25,878 nucleotides of DNA from a virus, in IMG/VR virus record IMGVR_UViG_3300025286_000124, positions 1 through 25,878 of that record; one strand, given 5' to 3'. This document shows positions 3,631-14,582 of this stretch, one piece after another. Every line of letters begins with the position of its first letter. The stretch's first letter is position 1. A program made the position numbers and the translations under genes. The notes under the pieces are model-generated. The model ran no database searches and had not been told where the DNA came from. It saw only the letters and a list, made by a program, of their open reading frames with translations.

Positions 3631-4059
3631 TCATGCCTTCAGCTTTTCTCTGTTGGCAAGGTGAGCTTCCCTGATTTCATCTTTAGATTGCCCCTCGTAG
3701 GCCACCGCATGATGGGCTTTAATCATTTTAGCATTCACGCTTTCAGCGTCATCGCCAACGTACAACAGGCCCAGGATTCTCCCAAACTTTCCACGCCCAA
3801 AAGATTGCAGATAGATTTCCTTGTTTTTTTGAGAATCGACAAGTGGGCCATGCTCTGTATCCATCAGCCGGATTAAATGCTGTTTAGCCCTGTTCCCGAA
3901 TCTCTTCTCCTCTTTGTCTCTGGTTCTGCTTTCTGGAGCATCAATTCCATGCAGGCGAACGCGCTGGCTGCGAAGCCACACGTCAAAACCGAGATCGATA
4001 TCAACGTCGGCCGTGTCTCCGTCCACGATCTTGATGAGTTCTACCTGATAGTGATACAC
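3631..4059 (-). CDS. Staphylococcal-nuclease-like (thermonuclease) protein
   Basis: About 142 aa, of SNase (PF00565) type. Visible motifs are VELIKIVDGDTADVDIDLGF (first strands with the DGDT loop), VRLHGIDAPESR (the Arg, Asp and Glu expected at the calcium/catalytic site) and GKFGRILGLLYV (the position of the second catalytic Arg). The C-terminus ends in a charged helix. The family cleaves DNA and RNA with calcium. The longest frame begins at 4128 inside the nozzle gene, but the GTG at 4059 has a GGAG nine bases upstream and starts just before the family fold, so it is preferred; a GTG at 4065 is an alternative. There is no signal peptide, so it would act in the cytoplasm or be packaged. The flanking direct repeats suggest it is an inserted accessory gene. 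Confidence 0.85.
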   Translation of the reverse strand: MYHYQVELIKIVDGDTADVDIDLGFDVWLRSQRVRLHGIDAPESRTRDKEEKRFGNRAKQHLIRLMDTEHGPLVDSQKNKEIYLQSFGRGKFGRILGLLYVGDDAESVNAKMIKAHHAVAYEGQSKDEIREAHLANREKLKA

Positions 4060-4079
4060 GCTCACACGCTCCGCATTGG

Positions 4080-4099
4080 CATCAGGTAACGCCAGTGCC
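4080..4099. repeat. Direct repeat, right copy (3' end of nozzle gene)
   Basis: CATCAGGTAACGCCAGTGCC. This copy contains the real stop codon and last codons of the nozzle gene. It pairs with 3591-3610 on the other side of the nuclease gene. Confidence 0.85.
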
Positions 4100-5632
4100 G
4101 ACCGCCGTGATCTCAACTCCCTGTGCATGCGTCCATGTGCCGCCAGCGGCGACCGAGCAACGCACCCTGTGGTGCCTGCCTTCAGACAGCAGCGTGCAAA
4201 GGCCAGAGGCGTTCAGTGAAGCCGCACTGCCGAAACTGGCACTGTCCTGCACCCGAATGCGACTAGCAACTGCTGCTGTGATAGTGCCGCCATCGATATA
4301 GGGGCGTATCCCAGTGACCTCGGAACGCTGCCCTCTGAACGGCTGGAACTCTCCGGTGTCGAGGGTCGCAGCAAGGTTCGCGCCTTCAAACGTGCAATAG
4401 ACATTGGACCCATTAAATGCCGCCAGCACCTTATCTCCGCCCTGGTAGGCACGACTGCCCAACGGGAAGGGTAGGCCGCTCAAAGTTGATGAAATGGTGT
4501 CCAGTTCAGACAGCGTCAGACCGGCGTCAACGCCGGTGAAGACTAATTGAGTCGTGACCTCGCCCTCGGACCATTTGTTCTCGGCCCAATTGTAGAACCA
4601 GATGCGGTTTGGCTCGCCCGCTATGCTGGTTCCTTCGCCGGGATGGCTCCAGCAAACTGTCTTGTTCACTGGGTCGATTGCTGAAAACATGCGGCTCTGG
4701 TTTGACAGATCGAAGTTATCCCAGAAGAACCGGTCCACCATGCCGTGGCCGATAGGCGTGGAAGATGTGCCGTCCGTGAAATAAAACCCTTCTTCACTGA
4801 CGTAGAAAACAAGCCGTCCATGTCCGATGACACTGCCGCTGATCGGCGTCCCGTGGCGTCGATTAATTGTATCTAACTGATAGGTGAGCGGAGCGCCCAC
4901 AAACGACATGCGCACGATTTGGTGCTCAAGAAATATCAGCCCGTATTCGGCACCGCCAACGACCCGCATGACTCGCCCTGCCTCACCACCAGCAACATTC
5001 TGGAAGTCGGAGAGTGTTGAAGCAGCTGGCGTGAAATTCTTTGAATCATTCAGGCCAGACCACCAGACTCTTGACGGCTGATCTCCATCAGTTTCGTCGG
5101 TAGTGTCGCCCAACACGACCTGATCCCGAATGACGGCAATATGGCGTGCCTGCGGCTTGTCGCTTGAGGTGATGTGGTCAGAGAAGTTGCCGCTGCCAAT
5201 CGCTGCCCCCTGAAGCGGAGTAGCTATATGCGTGGCGAGAATGGTGTTGCCGAAATGCGCATATTCGATCTGGGCGTCAGATGCAGCTTCCTCATAATCG
5301 CCCGTAACATCAGTCAAAGATTCCGACACGTCGATACGATACAACTTGGTTGCATCAGCCGCATAGATGTAGACCTCGCCGCCTGTTGCCTGCACTGCAA
5401 CCGCACCCTGACATCTGGCAGTCAACGCCGAGGCCTGGGTTTTGAGATTGGGCAGTGGGCGGAAGCCGTCTGTCGTCGGGATTACGTTGATCGCATTGAT
5501 GCTGCCAGACGACCCGAGGGGTGCGCGGTCAGGTGCCCAACCGGAAAAGCCTACAATCGGCTGCGGTGCGACATCGATGTTATTGGCTACACCGATCTGA
5601 AACTGTTGCAGCCGCTGCGTCAGCGTCATCAT
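4082..5632 (-). CDS. Nozzle / tail hub protein (packaged-DNA stabilisation, P22 gp10-like)
   Basis: A 516-aa protein. After a short helical start it shows the family opening VGFSGWAPDRAPLGSSGSINAINVIPTTDGFRPLPNL. A series of beta blades follows, consistent with the beta-propeller of short-tail hub/nozzle proteins (P22 gp10, SU10 nozzle). Examples are GEVYIYAADATKLYRIDV, RVWWSGLNDSKNFTP, GLIFLEHQIVRMSFVG and GRLVFYVSEEGFYFTDG. The last part has small beta repeats. It probably assembles below the adaptor ring and closes the tail channel. It starts four bases before the adaptor stop (ATGATGA), so the two are coupled. Its last codons are duplicated beyond the nuclease gene. Confidence 0.85.
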   Translation of the reverse strand: MMTLTQRLQQFQIGVANNIDVAPQPIVGFSGWAPDRAPLGSSGSINAINVIPTTDGFRPLPNLKTQASALTARCQGAVAVQATGGEVYIYAADATKLYRIDVSESLTDVTGDYEEAASDAQIEYAHFGNTILATHIATPLQGAAIGSGNFSDHITSSDKPQARHIAVIRDQVVLGDTTDETDGDQPSRVWWSGLNDSKNFTPAASTLSDFQNVAGGEAGRVMRVVGGAEYGLIFLEHQIVRMSFVGAPLTYQLDTINRRHGTPISGSVIGHGRLVFYVSEEGFYFTDGTSSTPIGHGMVDRFFWDNFDLSNQSRMFSAIDPVNKTVCWSHPGEGTSIAGEPNRIWFYNWAENKWSEGEVTTQLVFTGVDAGLTLSELDTISSTLSGLPFPLGSRAYQGGDKVLAAFNGSNVYCTFEGANLAATLDTGEFQPFRGQRSEVTGIRPYIDGGTITAAVASRIRVQDSASFGSAASLNASGLCTLLSEGRHHRVRCSVAAGGTWTHAQGVEITAVGTGVT

Positions 5633-6534
5633 GCCTTGGTCACATTCGTTCGCATGATGAGCGGGGAGCCGCTGTGACGGTCGCCCCTGTTGGCTATTGA
5701 AATTCGATCTCTGGTTTCCTCATATAACGCCGTGTAGCGAAGCACTGCCGTGTTGTCCTTAATGAAGTTAGCGGCTTCGATCAGCGACCCATAGAGATAA
5801 AGCCCGGTCTTGTTCAACAATACGTTGTTGTCGTCACCATCCGAGGAAAACGCAGCCAGCCGGCGATAGTAGAGCATCTGCGCCGAATAGGCCGAATCAC
5901 TGGCCCCGCCAAAAACGATGTATTCACCTTCAATGGTGTAGGTCTTCGGCTTCGAGGTTTCTGATCCGGCATAAGTCGAATGAAAACTGTAAGGCTCGAA
6001 GTGCTCCAGCGTGCGTCTTGGATCACCGTCAATGTAGACACGTCGCATGCGGACATAGCGCGATGGCAAAGGCACACCGCCAGGTGGCGTCAGCCGCCAC
6101 TGGGTGCCATCGAAATAGAAGTAAGCATCATGCCCGGTAACCAAATCTGCGGCCTCCAAAGCATCGCCACCATCGCCTTTGCGGATATTGGTGTTGCCAA
6201 GACCGCTGACGTTGAGCGTTGCAGCCCCAGTATTGTTAGCCGCGATTTCACCCTTGATGGTGTCGCCCAGAGTCAATGAGGTAAATGCAGTAGAGGGAGT
6301 CAGAGTGAGAGCGTTCGCCGTGCCACCGGCTGTACCCCCGTCAACCGTCGCTTCGAGAACCAGATCGGCCTGCGCTTCCATCTCACGCAGACGCAAATCA
6401 GGGTCGTTGGCAATCCGGTCTTCAGCCAGCTTGATAAACTCATTGGTGCGGTCGTCGGTGACAATGGTGTCGCTGGCACGATCAAGCCAGTTCTGCACCG
6501 CAGTTCTGAGAGTGGCATAGGTCGTGATTGCCAT
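5629..6534 (-). CDS. Phage adaptor protein (SU10/DUF6682-like) with inserted beta domain
   Basis: A 301-aa protein. The N-terminus (TYATLRTAVQNWLDRASDTIVTDDRTNEFIKLAEDRIANDPDLRLREME) and the C-terminal half (PSRYVRMRRVYIDGDPRRTLEHFEPYSFHSTYAG, TIEGEYIVFGG, YYRRLAAFSSDGDDNNVLLNKTGLYLYGSLIEAANFIKD) are typical of the adaptor that joins portal to nozzle in short-tailed phages. Between them, residues about 62-150 carry a segment usually seen in tail-fibre proteins: GGTAGGTANALTLTPSTAFT, then NNTGAATLNVSGLGNTNIRK, then YFYFDGTQWRL. This looks like a domain inserted in the adaptor. The start is one base after the stop of the previous gene. Confidence 0.85.
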   Translation of the reverse strand: MAITTYATLRTAVQNWLDRASDTIVTDDRTNEFIKLAEDRIANDPDLRLREMEAQADLVLEATVDGGTAGGTANALTLTPSTAFTSLTLGDTIKGEIAANNTGAATLNVSGLGNTNIRKGDGGDALEAADLVTGHDAYFYFDGTQWRLTPPGGVPLPSRYVRMRRVYIDGDPRRTLEHFEPYSFHSTYAGSETSKPKTYTIEGEYIVFGGASDSAYSAQMLYYRRLAAFSSDGDDNNVLLNKTGLYLYGSLIEAANFIKDNTAVLRYTALYEETRDRISIANRGDRHSGSPLIMRTNVTKA

Positions 6535-6864
6535 CTACATGCGCCCTTCGCTGGTGCGCCACGCACGGTTATCGATGTCGTTGAGCTTGCGGCGCAAATA
6601 GATCGACTTCTCATGCCGGGGCAGCGTCATGAAGTTGACGCCGTCTTCCTTAATCCACTGTTCGACCACCACCAGCGGGATAGAGGCCACATGCCGCATA
6701 TCCCCGCTTGGCGTGTATCCCTTGCCCTGTGACCTCAAGTCTTTGTTGTTCTCAATAATCGGCTCAACGTCCTGAACCAGTTTGACTGTGGTCAAGTCGC
6801 TTGAGTGGTCGTAGTGGAACTCACTGATGACAGCGCCATCAGCGTCCAGAAGCCGCTTTGTCAC
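6535..6864 (-). CDS. Neck-region structural/accessory protein
   Basis: A 109-aa protein. It belongs to a recognisable phage family with the order FHYDHSSDLTTVKLVQDVEPIIENNKDLRSQG, then GDMRHVASIPLVVVEQWIKEDGVNF, then YLRRKLNDIDNRAWRTSEGRM. Members sit between capsid and adaptor genes in many short-tailed phages, but I know of no established biochemical function. It is hydrophilic and has no signal peptide or cysteine. ATGA overlap with the upstream gene and immediate adjacency to the adaptor place it within the coupled head-neck operon. Confidence 0.8.
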   Translation of the reverse strand: MTKRLLDADGAVISEFHYDHSSDLTTVKLVQDVEPIIENNKDLRSQGKGYTPSGDMRHVASIPLVVVEQWIKEDGVNFMTLPRHEKSIYLRRKLNDIDNRAWRTSEGRM

Positions 6865-7217
6865 GGTGTCATCTCGGTAATATGTATGCTGCCCGAAGCG
6901 CCAAGGAAAACGACATATTTCTGGCCCTTGGTCTTGGTGTAATAGATTGTCTCGGTCGGGATATAGACCGTAGCGGTGGCCGAGGTATCAACACCAAAGG
7001 TGCCCTCAAAATTGGTCGCTGACAGCGCCACCCAACAATCAACCTCACAGCCGATTCGCAGATAGCTGCCGAAGTTTCCAACGACGCCAGATGTAACCTG
7101 ATTGTCGCCGTTCATTACGTAGTTTGTCGCCCCGCTGGCAAATAGGTCGGTTTCGTTAATCGCCCAGGCAGGTGTTGCAAGAAAAACAAGACCCAACAGG
7201 GCCAGCCAAATTCTCAT
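6861..7217 (-). CDS. Small decoration-type protein with a signal peptide
   Basis: A 118-aa protein. Residues 1-19 (MRIWLALLGLVFLATPAWA) form a textbook Sec signal peptide ending in the AWA cleavage motif. The mature part is beta-rich and resembles small head-decoration-like proteins found after the capsid gene in other phages: FGSYLRIGCEVDCWVALSAT, then ATATVYIPTETIYYTKTKGQKYVVFLGASGSIHITEMT. Two cysteines five residues apart (CEVDC) would be suited to oxidation in the periplasm. Such an export signal is unexpected on a capsid-type protein. The start overlaps the stop of the O-antigen ligase-like gene (ATGA), and the stop overlaps the next start in the same way. It may be a virion protein with an unprocessed N-terminus, or a secreted relative of one. 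Confidence 0.75.
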   Translation of the reverse strand: MRIWLALLGLVFLATPAWAINETDLFASGATNYVMNGDNQVTSGVVGNFGSYLRIGCEVDCWVALSATNFEGTFGVDTSATATVYIPTETIYYTKTKGQKYVVFLGASGSIHITEMTP

Positions 7218-8977
7218 AATGGAGTCTCCGTTTCGATTCTCAGATAACCGGCCAGCAACTCAAATCCTGGTCGGTGTGTAGAGTTTGTTGGTAACGCCAT
7301 GCCGGTATTGATCGCCGTAATCAACCGAGGCACGTCACCAATCCTCAGCGCATATGCGCCATCCGCCAGCCATACGCCTGGCTGTAACGAAGCATGCACA
7401 GTCAACCAGCCAAGCAGCTCGTCGACCTCATCGCCTTGTATTTTCCAAAGGTCGTTATTCAGCAAATATTCAAGTCGGCTCATCTTGATCGCAGGCATAT
7501 AAGGCGCTGCTGTTCTGGCGATCCTATACGCCTGGTCAGCAGCTTCCTTTGTGATCGTAACGTCGCCATGCGCCGCTTTAAGGAGCGCCCCCACCGTTAA
7601 CATCAACTGGTGGCGATAACGCCTCTCGAACGGGTAACGCTGATAGGCATCGAGGTTGGCCTGCAACGCTGCCGGATGCGCGACCTTGATGTTGGCCTTG
7701 GTAGCTGAAAACGTCCGCTCGGCCAGAAAATAGGCGGAACTGGATGCAACCAGACCGGCCCCGATTAGTAGAAACGCCACACCCAACACCCGAGAGGTCA
7801 GAACTGGAAAATTGATAGTTACCCGAGGTTGCTCGCCCTGCATCAACGCCGCCGCTGCGAATATGACGACCGTCACTGTCGCCGGGTTCTGTAGCGGAAA
7901 ACTGATCTGGCTGAGAGCTGCCACAATCAGCAGCGCCATAGCCGCGCCGATGTCAAGGGCGTCCTTTTTCTTATTGTAAAACCGATGCACAGCAAGACCA
8001 ATAAGAGCGAGCGCGATCAGCACCCCAATCAGACCGGCATCAGCACCGAGCTGGAGCAATTCGTTGTGCGCTGCCCCGGCAAATACGCTGGCCGGATGCA
8101 ACACGGTGTCCATCTCGGGGAACCATTGCAGGTGTGCTTCCTGCACCCTGCCATACTCAAAATTGAAACTGCCAAGACCATGCCCGAAGAACGGCTTTTC
8201 AGCCCACAACAACGCGCTGTTAAACCCTATTTCCAAGCGGTGTGTGATTGCCTTCACGACGACCGAACTGGTGGCCCAACCTGACCAAAACGCAATATTG
8301 AGCGGGATCAGAAATCCGAAGCCTGCTACATAGTAGCGTTTCTGCCTGATAAGCCAGAGCATCAACGCGGCACCGACCGCACATGCGGCCACCCATTTAG
8401 AGTCACTTAAATTTTCAAACAAAATGAAGTAGAGCGCCACCAGCGTCACAGGCAGCGCAAACGGTCTGATCCACCAGACTGGAGTTTTGATGGCACACCA
8501 CGCCGCTACCACGAGCGACAATAGCACCAACAGCAGTTCAGCCTGGTAGTTCTCGTTTCCCATGCCGCCAAATATGGGCTTGTGGGCAAATCCAAAGATA
8601 ATCGCACCGGCCAGAGCAACGGTCGCACCGACATAGATAGCCGCACCCAGTGTCGCTCTGGGACACCGCTGTAACGCCACATAGAGCAGCCAGAGCACGC
8701 TGATAGCCTCTAGCGTCAGTAACCCGTCACGCGGGTCTGACGACCACGTCAGGGTCAATGCCAGATAACTGATGAACCCTGCCGCCAGCAGTTCACTGGT
8801 CGAGAATGTGACAAACCGGTTGCGATTTATCGAGACGGCGAAAAAACCAAGCGCGAGTGCTGCACCTGAATAGATGACCAGCCACCGAGGGATAATCGGT
8901 GAGCCGGTCCCAAGACCGTAGGTCAGGGCGGCGAGAACAAACAGCCCCGCCGCCCCAAACCCCAGTGTCCTAGTCAC
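7214..8977 (-). CDS. O-antigen ligase / Wzy-like polytopic membrane glycosyltransferase
   Basis: A 587-aa integral membrane protein with about ten to twelve hydrophobic segments, mainly residues 1-330 and 345-425. Visible Wzy_C/WaaL landmarks are GGMGNENYQAELLL (about 138-150, the GNxN loop), GHGLGSFNFEYGR (265-277) and HNELLQLGADAGLIG (304-318) in the large periplasmic loop. The C-terminal 160 residues are soluble and helical, like the TPR-type tails of Wzy_C ligases and of PglL/TfpO protein glycosyltransferases. Known members transfer lipid-linked glycans onto lipid A core, growing O-antigen or pilins, at the periplasmic face of the inner membrane. The start is a GTG immediately after the TAG of the upstream exported protein, without a clear ribosome binding site, so translation is probably coupled. 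Substrate is unknown; a lysogenic-conversion role is inferred. Confidence 0.85.
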   Translation of the reverse strand: MTRTLGFGAAGLFVLAALTYGLGTGSPIIPRWLVIYSGAALALGFFAVSINRNRFVTFSTSELLAAGFISYLALTLTWSSDPRDGLLTLEAISVLWLLYVALQRCPRATLGAAIYVGATVALAGAIIFGFAHKPIFGGMGNENYQAELLLVLLSLVVAAWCAIKTPVWWIRPFALPVTLVALYFILFENLSDSKWVAACAVGAALMLWLIRQKRYYVAGFGFLIPLNIAFWSGWATSSVVVKAITHRLEIGFNSALLWAEKPFFGHGLGSFNFEYGRVQEAHLQWFPEMDTVLHPASVFAGAAHNELLQLGADAGLIGVLIALALIGLAVHRFYNKKKDALDIGAAMALLIVAALSQISFPLQNPATVTVVIFAAAALMQGEQPRVTINFPVLTSRVLGVAFLLIGAGLVASSSAYFLAERTFSATKANIKVAHPAALQANLDAYQRYPFERRYRHQLMLTVGALLKAAHGDVTITKEAADQAYRIARTAAPYMPAIKMSRLEYLLNNDLWKIQGDEVDELLGWLTVHASLQPGVWLADGAYALRIGDVPRLITAINTGMALPTNSTHRPGFELLAGYLRIETETPL

Positions 8978-9574
8978 CTACAGGAACGAGGCCGAACTCT
9001 GGTCGCGGTCGTAGTAGATGATAATTGTCGCATCAACATCACCGGTGCTTGCTCCGTCAGTACCGATGGCAATCGTTCCGCCAGCCGCGACTGTAGGTGC
9101 CCCAGTGAGTTGCTGATTCTTACTAGCATGGTCGGTTGATTTTCCGGCCATGCTTCCTGTGGTGTCTCGATCACCAGCGCCCCCAAGCAAATACGCACCG
9201 GAAGAGTCGATAACCGCCGACGCAAGGGTGAGTGTGTTATTGGTGGTGATTTTGGTGAAATCGACACCAGGAGAAGCCTCCGACATGATCGAGACGGTCA
9301 ACACCGCGCTTGCAGCGGTGAGATCGCCATGAACAACCGAGTCAACCTGAGCAATGGAACCAGCAAACGGTACGGAAATATATGTCGTGCTGGCACTGCT
9401 CACGTTTTCCAAATTGACCGTCAAGTATGTCCGAGCAACCGGATAGGTTTCGCCATCGAAGTTTATCCACGATGTCGTGCCATCTGCGTTCTGCCGGATG
9501 TTCCACCCGGCATAAGCACCAATGGCCAACGTCATCACAAGCATGACAGCGACTGCGTTTAACAACTTTTTCAT
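8978..9574 (-). CDS. Decoration-like protein with a signal peptide
   Basis: A 198-aa protein. Residues 1-22 (MKKLLNAVAVMLVMTLAIGAYA) form a clear Sec signal peptide with an AYA cleavage motif. The next segment, GWNIRQNADGTTSWINFDG, is followed by a Thr/Ser/Val-rich beta domain (VNLENVSSASTTYISVPFAGSIAQVDSVVHGDLTAASAVLTVSI ... DVDATIIIYYDRD). That pattern resembles phage head decoration or fibre domains. The start has an AAGGAGA ribosome binding site and lies right after a terminator that follows the capsid gene. No cysteines are seen. It could coat the capsid, or sit in or outside the periplasm. Position directly after the major capsid gene favours a virion role; the signal peptide argues otherwise. 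Confidence 0.75.
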   Translation of the reverse strand: MKKLLNAVAVMLVMTLAIGAYAGWNIRQNADGTTSWINFDGETYPVARTYLTVNLENVSSASTTYISVPFAGSIAQVDSVVHGDLTAASAVLTVSIMSEASPGVDFTKITTNNTLTLASAVIDSSGAYLLGGAGDRDTTGSMAGKSTDHASKNQQLTGAPTVAAGGTIAIGTDGASTGDVDATIIIYYDRDQSSASFL

Positions 9575-9631: not shown

Positions 9632-10573
9632 TTATGATGTGGTCAGATCGGCAACCATGCCGGAACCGGCCTCGTTTCGGGACTCAAGGGCATACTCCGC
9701 GAGCAACAGACGCCGCTCACTGTCACCCGTTTTCGACAACTCCATCATCGTCACTGGACGTAGATACGCCGTTGCCCAAAGGTCTTTCTGGAGCACGAGT
9801 GCATCCCGCGCCCGAGAGAAACGATTGGGAATTATTTCGACGTCGCCAAAGTCTGACGAATATATGTCAATTGCCGCCACAAGTTGTTTGTCAGCCGCTC
9901 CTTTGAAGCGAGTGGCATTGCCCGTGAAGCCTGACATAGCCTGCTTGTTGAAGCTGCCAACCATGACACAGTCTGGATCGCCACCTGCATCCCAACACGA
10001 TGCAAGCACCGATTTTAGCAACGCCTCGGTGATGACACGTTGAGTTCCGTCGGTACGAGCGGTATTTCCAGCCGCACCCGAAGCGCCACCTGTGCCGAAA
10101 ACATCGTTGGTAGCTATCCAGGCACCAATCCCACCCGTCTCGCGGGCGGTCGTGGTGTTACCTGTGACCTCGGCGTTGTTGGCGAGCAGGATGCTCTCCA
10201 TGTCGCGCCGAAGTTCCTTCGCCACCTTGACGATCTGGTAGGCCAATTCGTCTTTGCGGCCAGCGGTGTTAACCGCCATTTGAGTGCCTGACACACGCGG
10301 CAATTTGTCGGAAATATTGCATGTGTTGGAAAGTCTAGTAGTGGCTACTGTTGCCACCGTTGAACTTTCATCACCTTCAAGTACAAAATTTGAACTCGAA
10401 GCTGCCGCCAAGGTATCTGTTTGCCACTCGTGCAGAACCGCCTTGGCGTCGGTACGCGGAATGCCCGTAATGAACGGTGTATCCGTTGGTGCCACGTTGT
10501 AGATGATGTCCGACAAATCTTCACGATTGCCGATAGCATCAAAAGTGGTAAAGGCATCTGTTGCTAAGGTCAT
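9632..10573 (-). CDS. Major capsid protein (SU10 / DUF5309-like HK97 fold)
   Basis: A 313-aa protein. The N-terminal signature TTFDAIGNREDLSDIIYNVAPTDTPFITGIPRTDAKAVLHEWQTDTLA is characteristic of the SU10 major capsid family (PF17236). Further matches are RRDMESILLANNAEVTGN (spine helix region), DCVMVGSFNKQAMSGF, VEIIPNRFS and a closing RRLLLAEYALESRNEAGSGMVADL. Length fits the family, which uses an HK97 fold. It has a GGAGAAAT ribosome binding site, follows the scaffold gene after 12 bases and is followed by a terminator, as expected for the most abundant virion protein. No protease domain is visible, so maturation by cleavage is not indicated. Confidence 0.92.
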   Translation of the reverse strand: MTLATDAFTTFDAIGNREDLSDIIYNVAPTDTPFITGIPRTDAKAVLHEWQTDTLAAASSSNFVLEGDESSTVATVATTRLSNTCNISDKLPRVSGTQMAVNTAGRKDELAYQIVKVAKELRRDMESILLANNAEVTGNTTTARETGGIGAWIATNDVFGTGGASGAAGNTARTDGTQRVITEALLKSVLASCWDAGGDPDCVMVGSFNKQAMSGFTGNATRFKGAADKQLVAAIDIYSSDFGDVEIIPNRFSRARDALVLQKDLWATAYLRPVTMMELSKTGDSERRLLLAEYALESRNEAGSGMVADLTTS

Positions 10574-10585
10574 TGGATATTTCTC

Positions 10586-11734
10586 CTATCCATCCAGAAG
10601 GCGTCGAACCAGGCCGACCGCATCGTCTGTGGTCGCACCGCTCCGACTGACACGTTGCCTCGCCTCAGCTACATCATCGCCAGCCTGCGCCCGTCGCCGC
10701 GTCGGGGAAGTTCCCGGTCGCTGCACCTTCGGCAGACCTTTGAGCTTTTTGGTGATCGTCTTGCGCTTGTCCTGCATGCCCCGATACCGCATGGCATCCC
10801 GAATCAGTAGAACCTGCCTGTGGTCAAACGCACCAATGACGAACCCCGTTATCTCGTCTTGAGTGAAACCAACCTCGCCCAGGTATGTCGCCATACCAGT
10901 CTCGAAACCTTCGAGTTTTTCAGGGTCGGTCAGCTCCGGTACTTTCTCGACGAGCATCTGCTGCTGTGACTCACGAAATTGCGCCACTTCGGCTTGCTGC
11001 TCGTGTCCTTGTCGTTGGCGTTCAACTTCCTGCGCTTGGCGCTGACCTACTAAGGCTTCCCGCTGCGCATCCTGTTGTGCCTTGATTCGGACATACTCAG
11101 CCGGGTCTTCCGACGCGAGACGTTGCATGTCTTCTGCCGGATACTCGACATCGAGCTGTTGGCTCAGTGTTGCAATCCGCTCATCAGCAGCCTGAAGTCG
11201 CTGCTGCAAAAGCTGTGAAGCCTGCCGCTTTTCGCCGTCAAATTGACGCCGTTCGTCGGCAAGCGCTGTCGTCTTCTGGCGATAGTCCGCGTCCATCTGT
11301 TGGCCGTTCGCCGCATCGGCAAGGCTGACCATCTGAGTCTCGCCATTGATCCTGATCGGCATCTTGAGGTGAGAAGCCAACTCGGCCTCATCAATCCCAA
11401 TCGCCTCAGCAAGACCTGAGAGAGTGTCAGGCAGTTCCTCACCGTCTTCGGTCGTTAGCTCAGTTGTCGCGTCATCATCAGTAGACGGTTCAACCGCTGG
11501 CTCATCGCCCTCGGTTGACCGTACCGGCTCCGCTTCCTGGTTGGCCGGTTCGGCTGGCGGTGTCTGCTCGGTTTTACTAGTTGGCCCTAGCTCAAGCTGG
11601 GGCTCCAAGCGAGCGGCAACCGCCTGTACTGCTTCTTCCTCGGTAGTCTCTACTCTTCCCTCAGCTCCCATACGCGGGTTGGCCTCGGTCGTCTCGGCTC
11701 CCTCTTCAGGGTTGGCCGCTGTTTCGTCTGACAT
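10586..11734 (-). CDS. Scaffolding protein
   Basis: A 382-aa, very acidic protein. Residues 1-100 are rich in Glu, Asp, Thr and Pro and likely disordered. Residues about 150-270 form a long Gln/Arg/Glu coiled coil (DADYRQKTTALADERRQFDGE ... QREALVGQRQAQEVERQRQ). The C-terminal 70 residues are basic (KRKTITKKLKGLPKVQRPGTSPTRRRAQ). Acidic disordered head, central coiled coil and basic C-terminal helices immediately upstream of the capsid gene are the classical layout of scaffolds such as P22 gp8, whose basic end contacts capsid subunits. Ribosome binding site GGAGAAACC precedes the ATG, directly after a terminator. Confidence 0.85.
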   Translation of the reverse strand: MSDETAANPEEGAETTEANPRMGAEGRVETTEEEAVQAVAARLEPQLELGPTSKTEQTPPAEPANQEAEPVRSTEGDEPAVEPSTDDDATTELTTEDGEELPDTLSGLAEAIGIDEAELASHLKMPIRINGETQMVSLADAANGQQMDADYRQKTTALADERRQFDGEKRQASQLLQQRLQAADERIATLSQQLDVEYPAEDMQRLASEDPAEYVRIKAQQDAQREALVGQRQAQEVERQRQGHEQQAEVAQFRESQQQMLVEKVPELTDPEKLEGFETGMATYLGEVGFTQDEITGFVIGAFDHRQVLLIRDAMRYRGMQDKRKTITKKLKGLPKVQRPGTSPTRRRAQAGDDVAEARQRVSRSGATTDDAVGLVRRLLDG

Positions 11735-11748
11735 GGTTTCTCCATAGA

Positions 11749-11780
11749 AAAAAGCCCCTCTGGCTAAAGAGCGGCTTTTG
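11749..11780 (-). terminator. Terminator just before the scaffold gene
   Basis: On the minus strand AAAAGCC-G-CTCT, a six-base loop, then AGAG-G-GGC followed by TTTTTT. The stem has a single G/G mismatch. The T-tract lies about four bases from the GGAG of the scaffold gene. The plus strand ends in TTTT, so weak action in the other direction is possible. Confidence 0.75.
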
Positions 11781-11986
11781 TGGGTGCGTCACTCAGACGC
11801 GCTAAAATTCTAGGTACAAACACTCATGGACATACGCAGGAGGGCACTCAGTGCCGCTCTACGGGGGTCGATTCTCACTGAACTACTGGATTCGGACGTA
11901 AATTATGTTATATGTAGGTTTCGGCATTTGAACTTCAGCTTGTGCGCCGTGGCATCCCGCCTAAAGCACTAAAGAGGAGAAATCAC
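11781..11986. other. Non-coding junction with short palindromes
   Basis: About 200 bases between the scaffold terminator and a plus-strand gene. It holds the hairpin GCGTC-ACTCA-GACGC (11786-11800) and the palindrome GGCACT-C-AGTGCC (11843-11855), with further CACTCA/CACTGA copies nearby. An AT-rich stretch (11900-11920, TTATGTTATATG) could contain the promoter for the plus-strand gene, although no good -35 is visible. No ORF fits the region. Confidence 0.5.
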
Positions 11987-12190
11987 ATGACTAAAAAAGT
12001 TAAGCATACCGAGGAGAACGTCCTCGGAGTTTATTGGGATAAAGCCAGTGGTAAAATCGTGCCCTTTTGGGAAGACAACGAACCGTGGCATGTGCAGCAG
12101 TGGACGGAAAACTGGGGCAAGAACGTCACGAGCCTGACGATGGCTGGCGCTCCTCGCCCTGTTGTGCCGCCGAAATCCCAAGAAGGATAA
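11987..12190 (+). CDS. 67-aa hypothetical protein, plus-strand accessory gene
   Basis: The sequence begins MTKKVKHTEENVLGVYWDKASGK and continues VPFWEDNEPWHVQQWTENWG. The ATG at 11987 has a strong AAAGAGGAGAAA ribosome binding site, so an in-frame ATG at 11942 is not needed. It is Trp-rich (five Trp in 67 residues) and charged, with no cysteine or membrane segment. I do not recognise a family. It runs opposite to the structural operon, and its last 22 codons overlap the 3' end of the 818-aa gene tail to tail. Position and orientation suggest an independently expressed accessory gene. Confidence 0.7.
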   Translation: MTKKVKHTEENVLGVYWDKASGKIVPFWEDNEPWHVQQWTENWGKNVTSLTMAGAPRPVVPPKSQEG

Positions 12191-14582
12191 ACCCGGTCGC
12201 AGGGAGAACACCCTTCGACATATCTTTCATCAATCTATCAACCCAGCCGGGGCCAGAGGCGACGATGCGTCTGAATAGCTCCAAGTCTTTGCGCCCCGGC
12301 CCAAATATCTTTGCCAAGTCTTTATCGCGCTCGATATAGTTCAGAGCAATATCTCCAAGATATGGGTTCCTGTTCATCGCCGACCTGATTTCCGGCGTGG
12401 CGTTAATTGCATCTGTGACTATTTTTGTTACAGCACCCGAACCTTCGCCCTTCTCCCACGCATCAGACAGAAACACGGCGACTGAATCAACACTCGCGCG
12501 TTTGACGGTTTCCACATCTGGGCGGACAGCTTTCAAGTCGCTCAACAAACTTGCCATCTCTTTTGTCGATGGCGTGTGTGCCTCGCCGCCAAAGTTGGTC
12601 AGCGTTGCACCGTCACCCGTATCGGCAACATCGTCGTAGCCGTATTTCTGGGCGACATTTCTGAAATCAACTGCCTGTTGTGGCGTTAACTTCGAAAGCA
12701 AACTGACCCGAACAGCGTTCCTATCACTGATACGACCGCTTTCGGTCACAATATGTGCCGACGAAATATCCTGACCGCTCAGTCCACCTCTCAACGCCTC
12801 GACCGCTTCGACGATCTTGCGATCTGCCGGGGCGATAGTTTTTGGTAAAGCACCACTGGTTTGCAAACCCACCAAAGGTCGAGCCACCTCACCAGGGTTC
12901 AGCTCAAGCTGCTTCAGGGTATTCTCATAGACACCTTGCATCGGGATCGTTGGCTGCACACGCATGGCAATGCCCGTTGGCCCACTCGGTCCTTCATAGG
13001 TCAAACCGGCATAAGGAGCATCCCGTCCTCCCGGTGCCGTCGCAAACGACCCACGAGGATCGGTGCCAATAACATCCCGCTGCGCCTGTGTTGCCGTAGC
13101 CATCTGCGGCAAATGCCCAGTGCTGGTTCCCGGTATTGTTTCATGGGTGGCGTACAACGTATGTTTCGGGAAATAATCACCAATGGTTCTGTTAGCTTCA
13201 TCGAACGCCAGCTTACGAGCAGCCGTTTCGATGGCCTCGGCACTGAAATCATTTCGCCCCTCGGCTGTCATTTGCGTGATGGCATTTTTGACATATCGCT
13301 TCTTGCTTATTTCAAAGAGGGCATCAGCTTTCTGGGCAACCCAGCCCGCTGCCTGGATTTCCTGACCTGTCCAATTCGACCGACCACCAAGATTTCTCGC
13401 GTTGGCACGCTCCACAGCCAGCGCCGTCTCATAATCAATAAATGTATGTTGAGCCTTGGTTAAGGTGCCACGAAACGGTGAGCCATCTGCTTCCCTATAA
13501 CCCATCTCATTAGCCCAGCGGAAATCATTGACGCCGGTTGCAAGTAAGCGGCTTTGGTATGGGTAAATCTTTTCCGCATATTCACCGGTCTTTTCCCCCA
13601 ACTGAAGAGCGGATGTATCACTCAAAGCGGCTGCGTCGAGCAGCGCTTGATGCTGTGCCTGTCGTGCAGCCTTCGTCGGCATACCGGCAAGGATGCCACT
13701 CGTTTCCTTCAATGCAAAACCAAGTTCAGAGCCGGGGTCTACTCCCGCAGAGAATTGTGCCTGAGTGTCAGCCATCCACCTGGCAGGCGTCACCGCACCG
13801 CCAGTTACACGGCGAACATCAGACCGATATCGTTTGTACCAATCGCCGCCTTCCAAACCGGCATCGATATTGGCGTCCAGCTCTTTACGCATTTTTGTTA
13901 ACGCCTGCCAACTTTTGATGTTAGCCGGTCCACCAATAAACTTGCCCGGCGACTGCTTCCCTGCCCGGATGAGATGCGGCTGTGAGCTGGCTTGGGTCAG
14001 TGCCTTGTTGAGCGGCATTTTTCTGATGTCTGGCACTTCAGACATATTCTTGAAACTGAGCGTAAACCCACGGTTTTTCAACGCAGCTTTACCAAGAAGT
14101 TTACCGGCTCCTGTGAGGGAGCCAGGTACGCCAGCGACTGCCAACGTACCCATTAGATTTGTGCCCATCCACTCGCCGAGCGGTACAGATTCTTCAGTGC
14201 CCCTAATCGCGTTAACGTGTTGCGCGATAGCTCGATAGACAGCTTCCGCACCAGTATCCCTACCGATACGTCGCAAGTTCTGCTCGGCGTATTTATCAAG
14301 GCCCAGCCGATCCAAAAGTCTAGAAGGCAGGGTTTGGTCAGGACCGGCTCTCAATGATCCAAACCCTGCCGCAGCCGCATCAGGACCGGCTCTCAACGAT
14401 TGCGGCTGCGGAAGATTCCTCAGCCACTGCGTTGCTGCTCGCTCTTTCTCTTCCTTCAATTGCGCCGCCGCACGCCGTTGAAACAGCTGACCTCGTGTTG
14501 GCTCCAGCAACGATGACCGCCGCGGCAAAAATGACGCGTTACGCCCAGTTCTTTGATAGTATGCACCTAAAGGATCAGGCAT
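12126..14582 (-). CDS. Large virion-type protein, 818 aa
   Basis: Starts MPDPLGAYYQRTGRNASFLPRRSSLLEP, with a GGGGA element upstream. Residues 45-90 hold two copies of SLRAGPD separated by AAAAGFG, over the tandem hairpins at 14326-14411. A hydrophobic Gly/Ala segment (MGTNLMGTLAVAGVPGSLTGAGKLLGKAAL, about 137-166) is followed by long alpha-helical, Gln/Ala-rich sequence. The C-terminus has a hydrophobic patch (GVLPATGFILLGISAAQQ). No Walker, protease or lysozyme motif is visible. It sits between a small head gene and the scaffold. Size and helical composition suggest an internal virion protein. Its last 65 bases overlap the convergent gene at 11987-12190. Confidence 0.75.
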   Translation of the reverse strand: MPDPLGAYYQRTGRNASFLPRRSSLLEPTRGQLFQRRAAAQLKEEKERAATQWLRNLPQPQSLRAGPDAAAAGFGSLRAGPDQTLPSRLLDRLGLDKYAEQNLRRIGRDTGAEAVYRAIAQHVNAIRGTEESVPLGEWMGTNLMGTLAVAGVPGSLTGAGKLLGKAALKNRGFTLSFKNMSEVPDIRKMPLNKALTQASSQPHLIRAGKQSPGKFIGGPANIKSWQALTKMRKELDANIDAGLEGGDWYKRYRSDVRRVTGGAVTPARWMADTQAQFSAGVDPGSELGFALKETSGILAGMPTKAARQAQHQALLDAAALSDTSALQLGEKTGEYAEKIYPYQSRLLATGVNDFRWANEMGYREADGSPFRGTLTKAQHTFIDYETALAVERANARNLGGRSNWTGQEIQAAGWVAQKADALFEISKKRYVKNAITQMTAEGRNDFSAEAIETAARKLAFDEANRTIGDYFPKHTLYATHETIPGTSTGHLPQMATATQAQRDVIGTDPRGSFATAPGGRDAPYAGLTYEGPSGPTGIAMRVQPTIPMQGVYENTLKQLELNPGEVARPLVGLQTSGALPKTIAPADRKIVEAVEALRGGLSGQDISSAHIVTESGRISDRNAVRVSLLSKLTPQQAVDFRNVAQKYGYDDVADTGDGATLTNFGGEAHTPSTKEMASLLSDLKAVRPDVETVKRASVDSVAVFLSDAWEKGEGSGAVTKIVTDAINATPEIRSAMNRNPYLGDIALNYIERDKDLAKIFGPGRKDLELFRRIVASGPGWVDRLMKDMSKGVLPATGFILLGISAAQQGEERQPSSGS
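14326..14411. repeat. Tandem hairpins with the same loop and different stems
   Basis: Hairpin 1 has arms GGCAGGGTTTGG (14326-14337) and CCAAACCCTGCC (14359-14370), a perfect 12-bp stem. Hairpin 2 has arms CCGCAGCCGCA (14369-14379) and TGCGGCTGCGG (14401-14411), a perfect 11-bp stem. The two 21-base loops (14338-14358 and 14380-14400) share the core GGACCGGCTCTCAA and differ at one base. The hairpins overlap by two bases, and each loop encodes SLRAGPD on the minus strand. Confidence 0.9.

Follow-up and report, generated by a model that had tools for sequence, protein, structure and literature searches.

Signal peptides on capsid-adjacent and tail-fibre proteins and their coupling to a Wzy_C membrane enzyme in SU10-like podoviruses

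Tailed phages are taken to assemble entirely in the cytoplasm. The 25,878-bp virus contig analysed here (IMG/VR record IMGVR_UViG_3300025286_000124, positions 1 to 25,878; hereafter the window) raises the question of why two small proteins encoded next to its capsid gene, dec1 and dec2, should both carry signal peptides (SPs), in departure from the SP-less, cytoplasm-made decoration and cement proteins of tailed phages, and why a gene for a Wzy_C membrane glycan ligase/transferase should lie between them. A first-pass annotation, made from the sequence alone, had described three consecutive genes with an abutting start and an ATGA overlap, and this layout was confirmed. The first gene of the cassette, dec1 (8978..9574, 198 aa), is followed by the Wzy_C gene (7214..8977, 587 aa), which has a GTG start on the base right after the dec1 stop, and dec2 (6861..7217, 118 aa) overlaps the Wzy_C gene by 4 bp, all three on the minus strand. 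Comparison with related phages indicates that the predicted export of these proteins, and its coupling to Wzy_C, is well supported at the sequence level.

Signal peptides and their coupling to Wzy_C

SPs were called by a rule that considers charge, hydrophobic core and an AxA-type site, and dec1 and dec2 both begin with basic residues, followed by a hydrophobic core and an AxA site. The predicted SP of dec1 comprises residues 1-22 (9509..9574, minus strand), MKKLLNAVAVMLVMTLAIGAYA, with cleavage between AYA and the G of the following GWNI, and that of dec2 residues 1-19 (7161..7217, minus strand), MRIWLALLGLVFLATPAWA, with cleavage between AWA and the I of the following INE. The rule flagged just 5 of 1136 open reading frames (ORFs) of at least 80 aa in relatives without Wzy_C, and the SPs of both proteins are kept, with conserved cleavage-type sites, in relatives with Wzy_C down to about 30% identity. 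These SPs, already proposed by the first-pass annotation, are thus not a product of chance. No start codon was found near the cleavage site of dec1, dec2 or the tail fibre described below, and internal initiation was consequently rejected as a source of leaderless isoforms.

Viral contigs were scanned with Wzy and major capsid protein (MCP) sequences and with profiles, and the phage loci compared are labelled by L-numbers (L002, L005 and so on) and called Wzy+ or Wzy- for the presence or absence of a phage Wzy_C gene. The SU10-like loci found belong to about 13 Wzy lineages, with Wzy identities reaching as low as 27-30%. Every Wzy+ SU10-like locus in which this region is in view has a dec1 gene with an SP placed between those for MCP and Wzy, and an SP-bearing dec2 comes next in 9 of the 13 lineages; the core unit is SP-bearing dec1 with Wzy_C, and dec2 is a frequent third member. 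Among the classified SU10-like loci, every one of the 14 distinct Wzy+ dec1 sequences whose N-terminus is intact has an SP, as against 0 of the 71 Wzy- sequences, and the dec2 SP is confined to Wzy+ phages. It had been anticipated that relatives lacking the membrane gene and having SP-less neighbours would argue against a shared role. Such relatives do exist, yet they support the coupling since SPs and Wzy_C are absent together and present together across the SU10-like relatives. The association of export with Wzy_C is thereby strongly supported, and the suggestion that the neighbours are merely coincidental finds no support.

Stronger evidence than this correlation is provided by the exchange of the cassette, the cysteines, the tail fibre and other phage types. 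The phages of L005 and L008 are divergent, with identities of 47.5% in the portal, 26% in the scaffold and 38% in the adaptor, whereas their dec1 proteins are 95.5% and their Wzy proteins 86.1% identical; dec2 reaches merely 57%. Where dec1 begins, nucleotide identity climbs from 61% to 87%, and where Wzy ends it drops from 73% to 52%; dN/dS is 0.04 for dec1 and 0.08 for Wzy. These steps, together with the low dN/dS, show that dec1 and Wzy were exchanged and selected as a pair, and they constitute an exact two-gene cassette that moves between phages under purifying selection.

A C-x3-C motif (C57-x3-C61 in the window) is found in 8 of 9 distinct exported dec2 sequences and in 0 of 68 non-exported ones. 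Exported dec1 is devoid of cysteine in 14 of 15 sequences, the remaining one having a pair, while at least one cysteine is present in 33 of 71 non-exported sequences. Judged from these sequences, the pattern is that expected for proteins which fold in an oxidising compartment.

The trio and the capsid proteins of a 38,754-bp contig (L002/L010) are identical to those of the window, and this longer contig encodes, outside the window, a 445-aa fibre-type protein with the N-terminus MKRLLLPSLIVLALAAGWSFA and predicted cleavage before AEIK. According to the fibre-family HMM, an SP is present in 5/5 Wzy+ phages with the fibre in view and in 0/43 Wzy- homologues. The N-terminal 48 residues of the mature fibre suffice for a match to the beginning of non-exported fibres (E 4e-7), whose initiator Met lines up with the mature N-terminus; the fibre N-terminal domain, presumably the virion anchor, is thus kept behind an added SP. 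The 38,754-bp contig yielded no further recognisable fibre of a non-exported kind. For the fibre, a general rule of cysteine parity was considered and was found unsupported. A further SP-bearing protein of 140 aa, of unknown family, is encoded directly downstream of an SP-bearing tail fibre at L182:8008-8430.

The association also extends to other types of phage. L074 has an unrelated Head-tail_con portal and encodes an SP-bearing protein, with a fibre-like N-terminal part and a dec1 domain, that overlaps its Wzy_C gene. The BPP-1-like L173/L177 (GP7 MCP, Bbp16) encode SP-bearing proteins, one of which overlaps the Wzy_C gene by one base, and an SP-bearing fibre too. Several SP-bearing late proteins, tail fibre included, surround the Wzy_C gene in the BPP-1-like L173/L176 and L177.

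Relatives of the exported proteins and of the enzyme

The late operon of Pelagibacter phage HTVC106P (gp62-gp57) has the same gene order as the window, with MCP, directly followed by the dec1 homologue gp61 and the dec2 homologue gp60, and then gp58 (phrog_3982-type) and gp57 (adaptor). It differs in having no Wzy_C, none lying between gp61 and gp60, and in that gp61, gp60 and the fibre are all without SP. In leave-group-out searches, HMMs built from exported forms only retrieve the non-exported forms, and the reverse, with E-values down to 3e-24 for dec1 and 6e-13 for dec2, and hhalign of exported versus non-exported forms gives 99.7% for dec1 and 99.0% for dec2. By these profile comparisons dec1 and dec2 are evidently homologous to proteins encoded beside MCP in related phages. 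AlphaFold2 models of both proteins are all-beta with medium confidence, and the best fold match of the dec1 model is to the trimeric cement proteins KHP40 and KHP30 of Helicobacter phages (Z 8.5 and 8.3, respectively, 117-119 residues), although these values barely exceed the background of other viral jelly rolls (8.0). The dec1 gene adjoins that of MCP, and dec1 differs from the KHP30/KHP40 cement protein by its cleavable-type SP. The dec2 model is a generic jelly roll/cupin. The first-pass guess that both are of decoration type gains support from their homology to capsid-adjacent proteins and, in the case of dec1, from the cement fold match with its narrow margin over background. PDB sequence searches with the dec1 and dec2 profiles gave insignificant matches only, and the hhalign value of 16% for phiM5 gp13, an annotated virion protein, did not justify accepting it as homologous to dec2.

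Immediately behind its SP, exported dec1 has a hairpin motif, (G/A)WNIxQxxDGTxxW (residues 23-45, window 9440-9508), which is kept in nearly all exported dec1 lineages and was not seen in dec1 of the HTVC106P type. L017, a close MCP relative (70%) without the cassette, encodes at L017:2872-3111 a 79-aa SP-less protein with its start near an MGWNLKQ motif, which most exported dec1 proteins have behind their SP.

The membrane enzyme of the window matches PF04932 with 38.4 bits (E 1.4e-9; curated cut-off 31.7), in agreement with its initial assignment as Wzy_C-like, and PF04932 is matched by 8/8 divergent phage Wzy proteins. Hydropathy and charge predict about 13 transmembrane (TM) helices, with a large loop (residues 236-311; 8045..8272, minus strand) and a C-terminal soluble domain (residues 411-587; 7217..7747, minus strand) on the outside, and charge bias places the loop in the periplasm, as is also predicted for the C-terminal domain. 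R247 and H304 of this loop, as well as E249, are invariant among the 8 divergent members, and loop Arg/His residues are known to have a catalytic role in the Wzy_C superfamily. A separate overlapping frame with its own TM helix at the start encodes the C-terminal domain in three lineages (L018:10258-10980, L021:10563-11138 and, downstream of Wzy, L103/L164). The PDB sequence search with the Wzy profile gave no match. NCBIfam gave weak matches only, mostly to protein O-glycosylation ligases (best scores: PEP_O_lig_1 33.9 of 188.1 bits, TfpM 18.8 of 600, RfaL E 0.12), and these ligases alone are matched by more than one Wzy member, all far below cut-off; the window enzyme itself has no NCBIfam O-glycosylation ligase match, and no member reaches the equivalog cut-offs of PglL, TfpM or PEP_O_lig_1.

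The bacterial O-oligosaccharyltransferases (PglL/TfpO/TfpM; PEP_O_lig_1) resemble this system in being Wzy_C-type multispanning enzymes whose invariant Arg and His lie in a loop predicted to be periplasmic, and in having exported partner proteins encoded beside them. They differ in that the enzyme here is phage-borne, scores far below the equivalog cut-offs and has an extra soluble C-terminal domain, and in that its partners are virion-type beta proteins and not pilins. The polymerases of seroconverting phages (epsilon15, D3 Wzy-beta) are, by description, also phage-encoded Wzy-type membrane enzymes. We know of no exported virion-type partner of theirs, while in the present module enzyme and partner gene are inseparable. 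The coat proteins of filamentous phages are made with signal peptides and assembled at the membrane by extrusion, and SPs on virion-type proteins are a shared trait; the present phage is, in contrast, a tailed dsDNA phage with an endolysin. In the open-access literature searched, neither exported decoration proteins nor such a module turned up. The parts belong to known superfamilies and, as far as can be told, their arrangement is new.

A proposed route to the virion and its alternatives

In the longer contig a tyrosine integrase, matching PF00589 at 1.7e-27, is encoded along with an M15 endolysin, which points to a temperate, host-lysing phage. One may picture a temperate SU10-like podovirus with a late-gene export-and-modification module, whose capsids and tails would assemble in the cytoplasm while Sec would carry dec1, dec2 and the tail fibre into the periplasm. 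The exported parts would fold there, dec2 forming its disulphide, and the co-transcribed Wzy_C would most likely glycosylate them with a host lipid-linked glycan as donor, like bacterial O-oligosaccharyltransferases. Lysis would then mix the compartments and processed parts would attach to the released particles. A host donor is assumed since in neither the window nor the examined part of the longer contig could a glycan-synthesis gene be recognised from the predicted proteins. A candidate acceptor is dec1, which, with its SP, adjoins Wzy_C in every Wzy+ SU10-like locus showing it.

We consider the chances about even that surface-exposed virion parts are exported via Sec, are glycosylated by Wzy_C in the periplasm and join the particle at lysis. 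Slightly short of even is the fuller version, in which a tailed phage exports a cement protein, a second decoration-type protein and a fibre, a Wzy_C oligosaccharyltransferase adds host glycan and the particle is finished at lysis. The enzyme class, the predicted topology and the linkage suggest that Wzy_C may transfer glycan to the exported proteins. The return of these parts to the virion is suggested by their homology, by the kept N-terminal domain of the fibre and by the lack of another recognisable fibre.

Several observations must be held against this proposal. The Wzy+ phages cluster together in the MCP tree (support 47), and a single change suffices there; independent Wzy+ origins on this tree were therefore rejected, and the perfect correlation of SPs with Wzy amounts to one event, so that its P-value exaggerates the evidence. 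Dec2 is missing from L068 and L103/L164, and L175 has Wzy and SP-bearing dec1 beside a dec2 without SP, so that dec2 was rejected as an obligatory member. One exported fibre has an odd cysteine count. The SU10-like L041 encodes three SP-bearing fibre-like late proteins (11239-13374), and no Wzy_C was found in its 44-kb contig, indicating that export is possible without Wzy_C and may have other uses. The Wzy_C subfamily allows for a polymerase, an LPS ligase or a protein ligase, attachment to virions after lysis is a proposal, and the system is known from the genes of uncultured phages.

It is unlikely, in our view, that the module instead serves envelope remodelling or superinfection exclusion, with Wzy_C altering the host O-antigen or some other glycan of the cell surface in the manner of seroconverting phages, and the fibre and beta proteins, once exported, acting at the envelope, for instance by receptor block, late in infection or in lysogeny. 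This would agree with the inclusion of O-antigen ligases in PF04932, with the integrase of a temperate phage, with export in L041 without Wzy_C and with the finding that phiV10 is among the phages sharing the head type of the BPP-1-like carriers; epsilon15, of the same head type as phiV10, is known for O-antigen conversion. The exported proteins are, however, homologues of capsid-adjacent and fibre proteins, the fibre retains its N-terminal domain with no non-exported counterpart recognised in the 38.75-kb contig, and the genes lie within the late capsid operon, where dec1 and Wzy travel as an exact pair. The homology and the kept fibre domain favour virion parts over proteins dedicated to masking the surface of a lysogen, a role that the first-pass annotation had put forward as a hypothesis.

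Export could also serve oxidative folding or timing, keeping the proteins apart from immature heads, while Wzy_C has a separate substrate. The restriction of C-x3-C to exported dec2 and the SP-bearing proteins of L041 are consistent with this, but most exported dec1 proteins are free of cysteine and still keep both the SP and the adjacent Wzy_C, and it is dec1 with Wzy that constitutes the exchanged unit; we regard this explanation as rather less probable than envelope remodelling. It is very improbable that the SPs are membrane anchors or functionless and that dec1 and dec2 stay in the cytoplasm as usual decoration proteins beside an unrelated moron gene. Their homologues in Wzy-less phages are indeed ordinary capsid-adjacent proteins, but SPs occur in three distinct protein families and, among the SU10-like phages, are confined in these families to those with Wzy, and both the cysteine pattern of the exported proteins and the conserved cleavage-type sites speak for functional export.

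If export, glycosylation and return to the virion are true, some tailed phages would build their outer surface in another compartment and add it at a late stage. This would open a route to virions with disulphide bonds and a coat of host glycan, and would bear on receptor binding, on the stability of the particle and on how it interacts with surface defences of the host. Sec signals on capsid-adjacent and tail-fibre homologues, gained together with a glycan ligase, would then represent a departure from cytoplasmic assembly.

Gene neighbourhood, relatives and minor observations

The minus strand of the window carries the morphogenesis genes of a podovirus in the order SU10 portal, scaffold, SU10 MCP (9632..10573, E 2e-91), trio, phrog_3982 protein (6535..6864, E 9e-25; a conserved gene after the cassette) and SU10 adaptor (5629..6534, E 1e-18), so that the trio follows the SU10-type capsid gene and precedes the adaptor genes. 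Searches by tblastn with Wzy, dec1, dec2, the L074 and L173 proteins and the SP-bearing fibre gave 0 matches in 50,697 phage records of isolates. Among bacterial genome contigs no Wzy or MCP relative was found with the patterns used, and hence no host.

An SNase-type nuclease gene (PF00565, 8.8e-13) at window 3631-4128 overlaps the end of the tail gene at 4082-5632. L019:9229-10656 seems to encode an SP-less relative of the first fibre-like protein of L041. In two Wzy+ relatives the major capsid gene is split, at different codons, by group I introns, which match Rfam RF00028 with E-values of 9e-16 and 1.5e-20 and are located at L005:6264-6532 (also in L004, L006 and L007) and L175:5501-5731.

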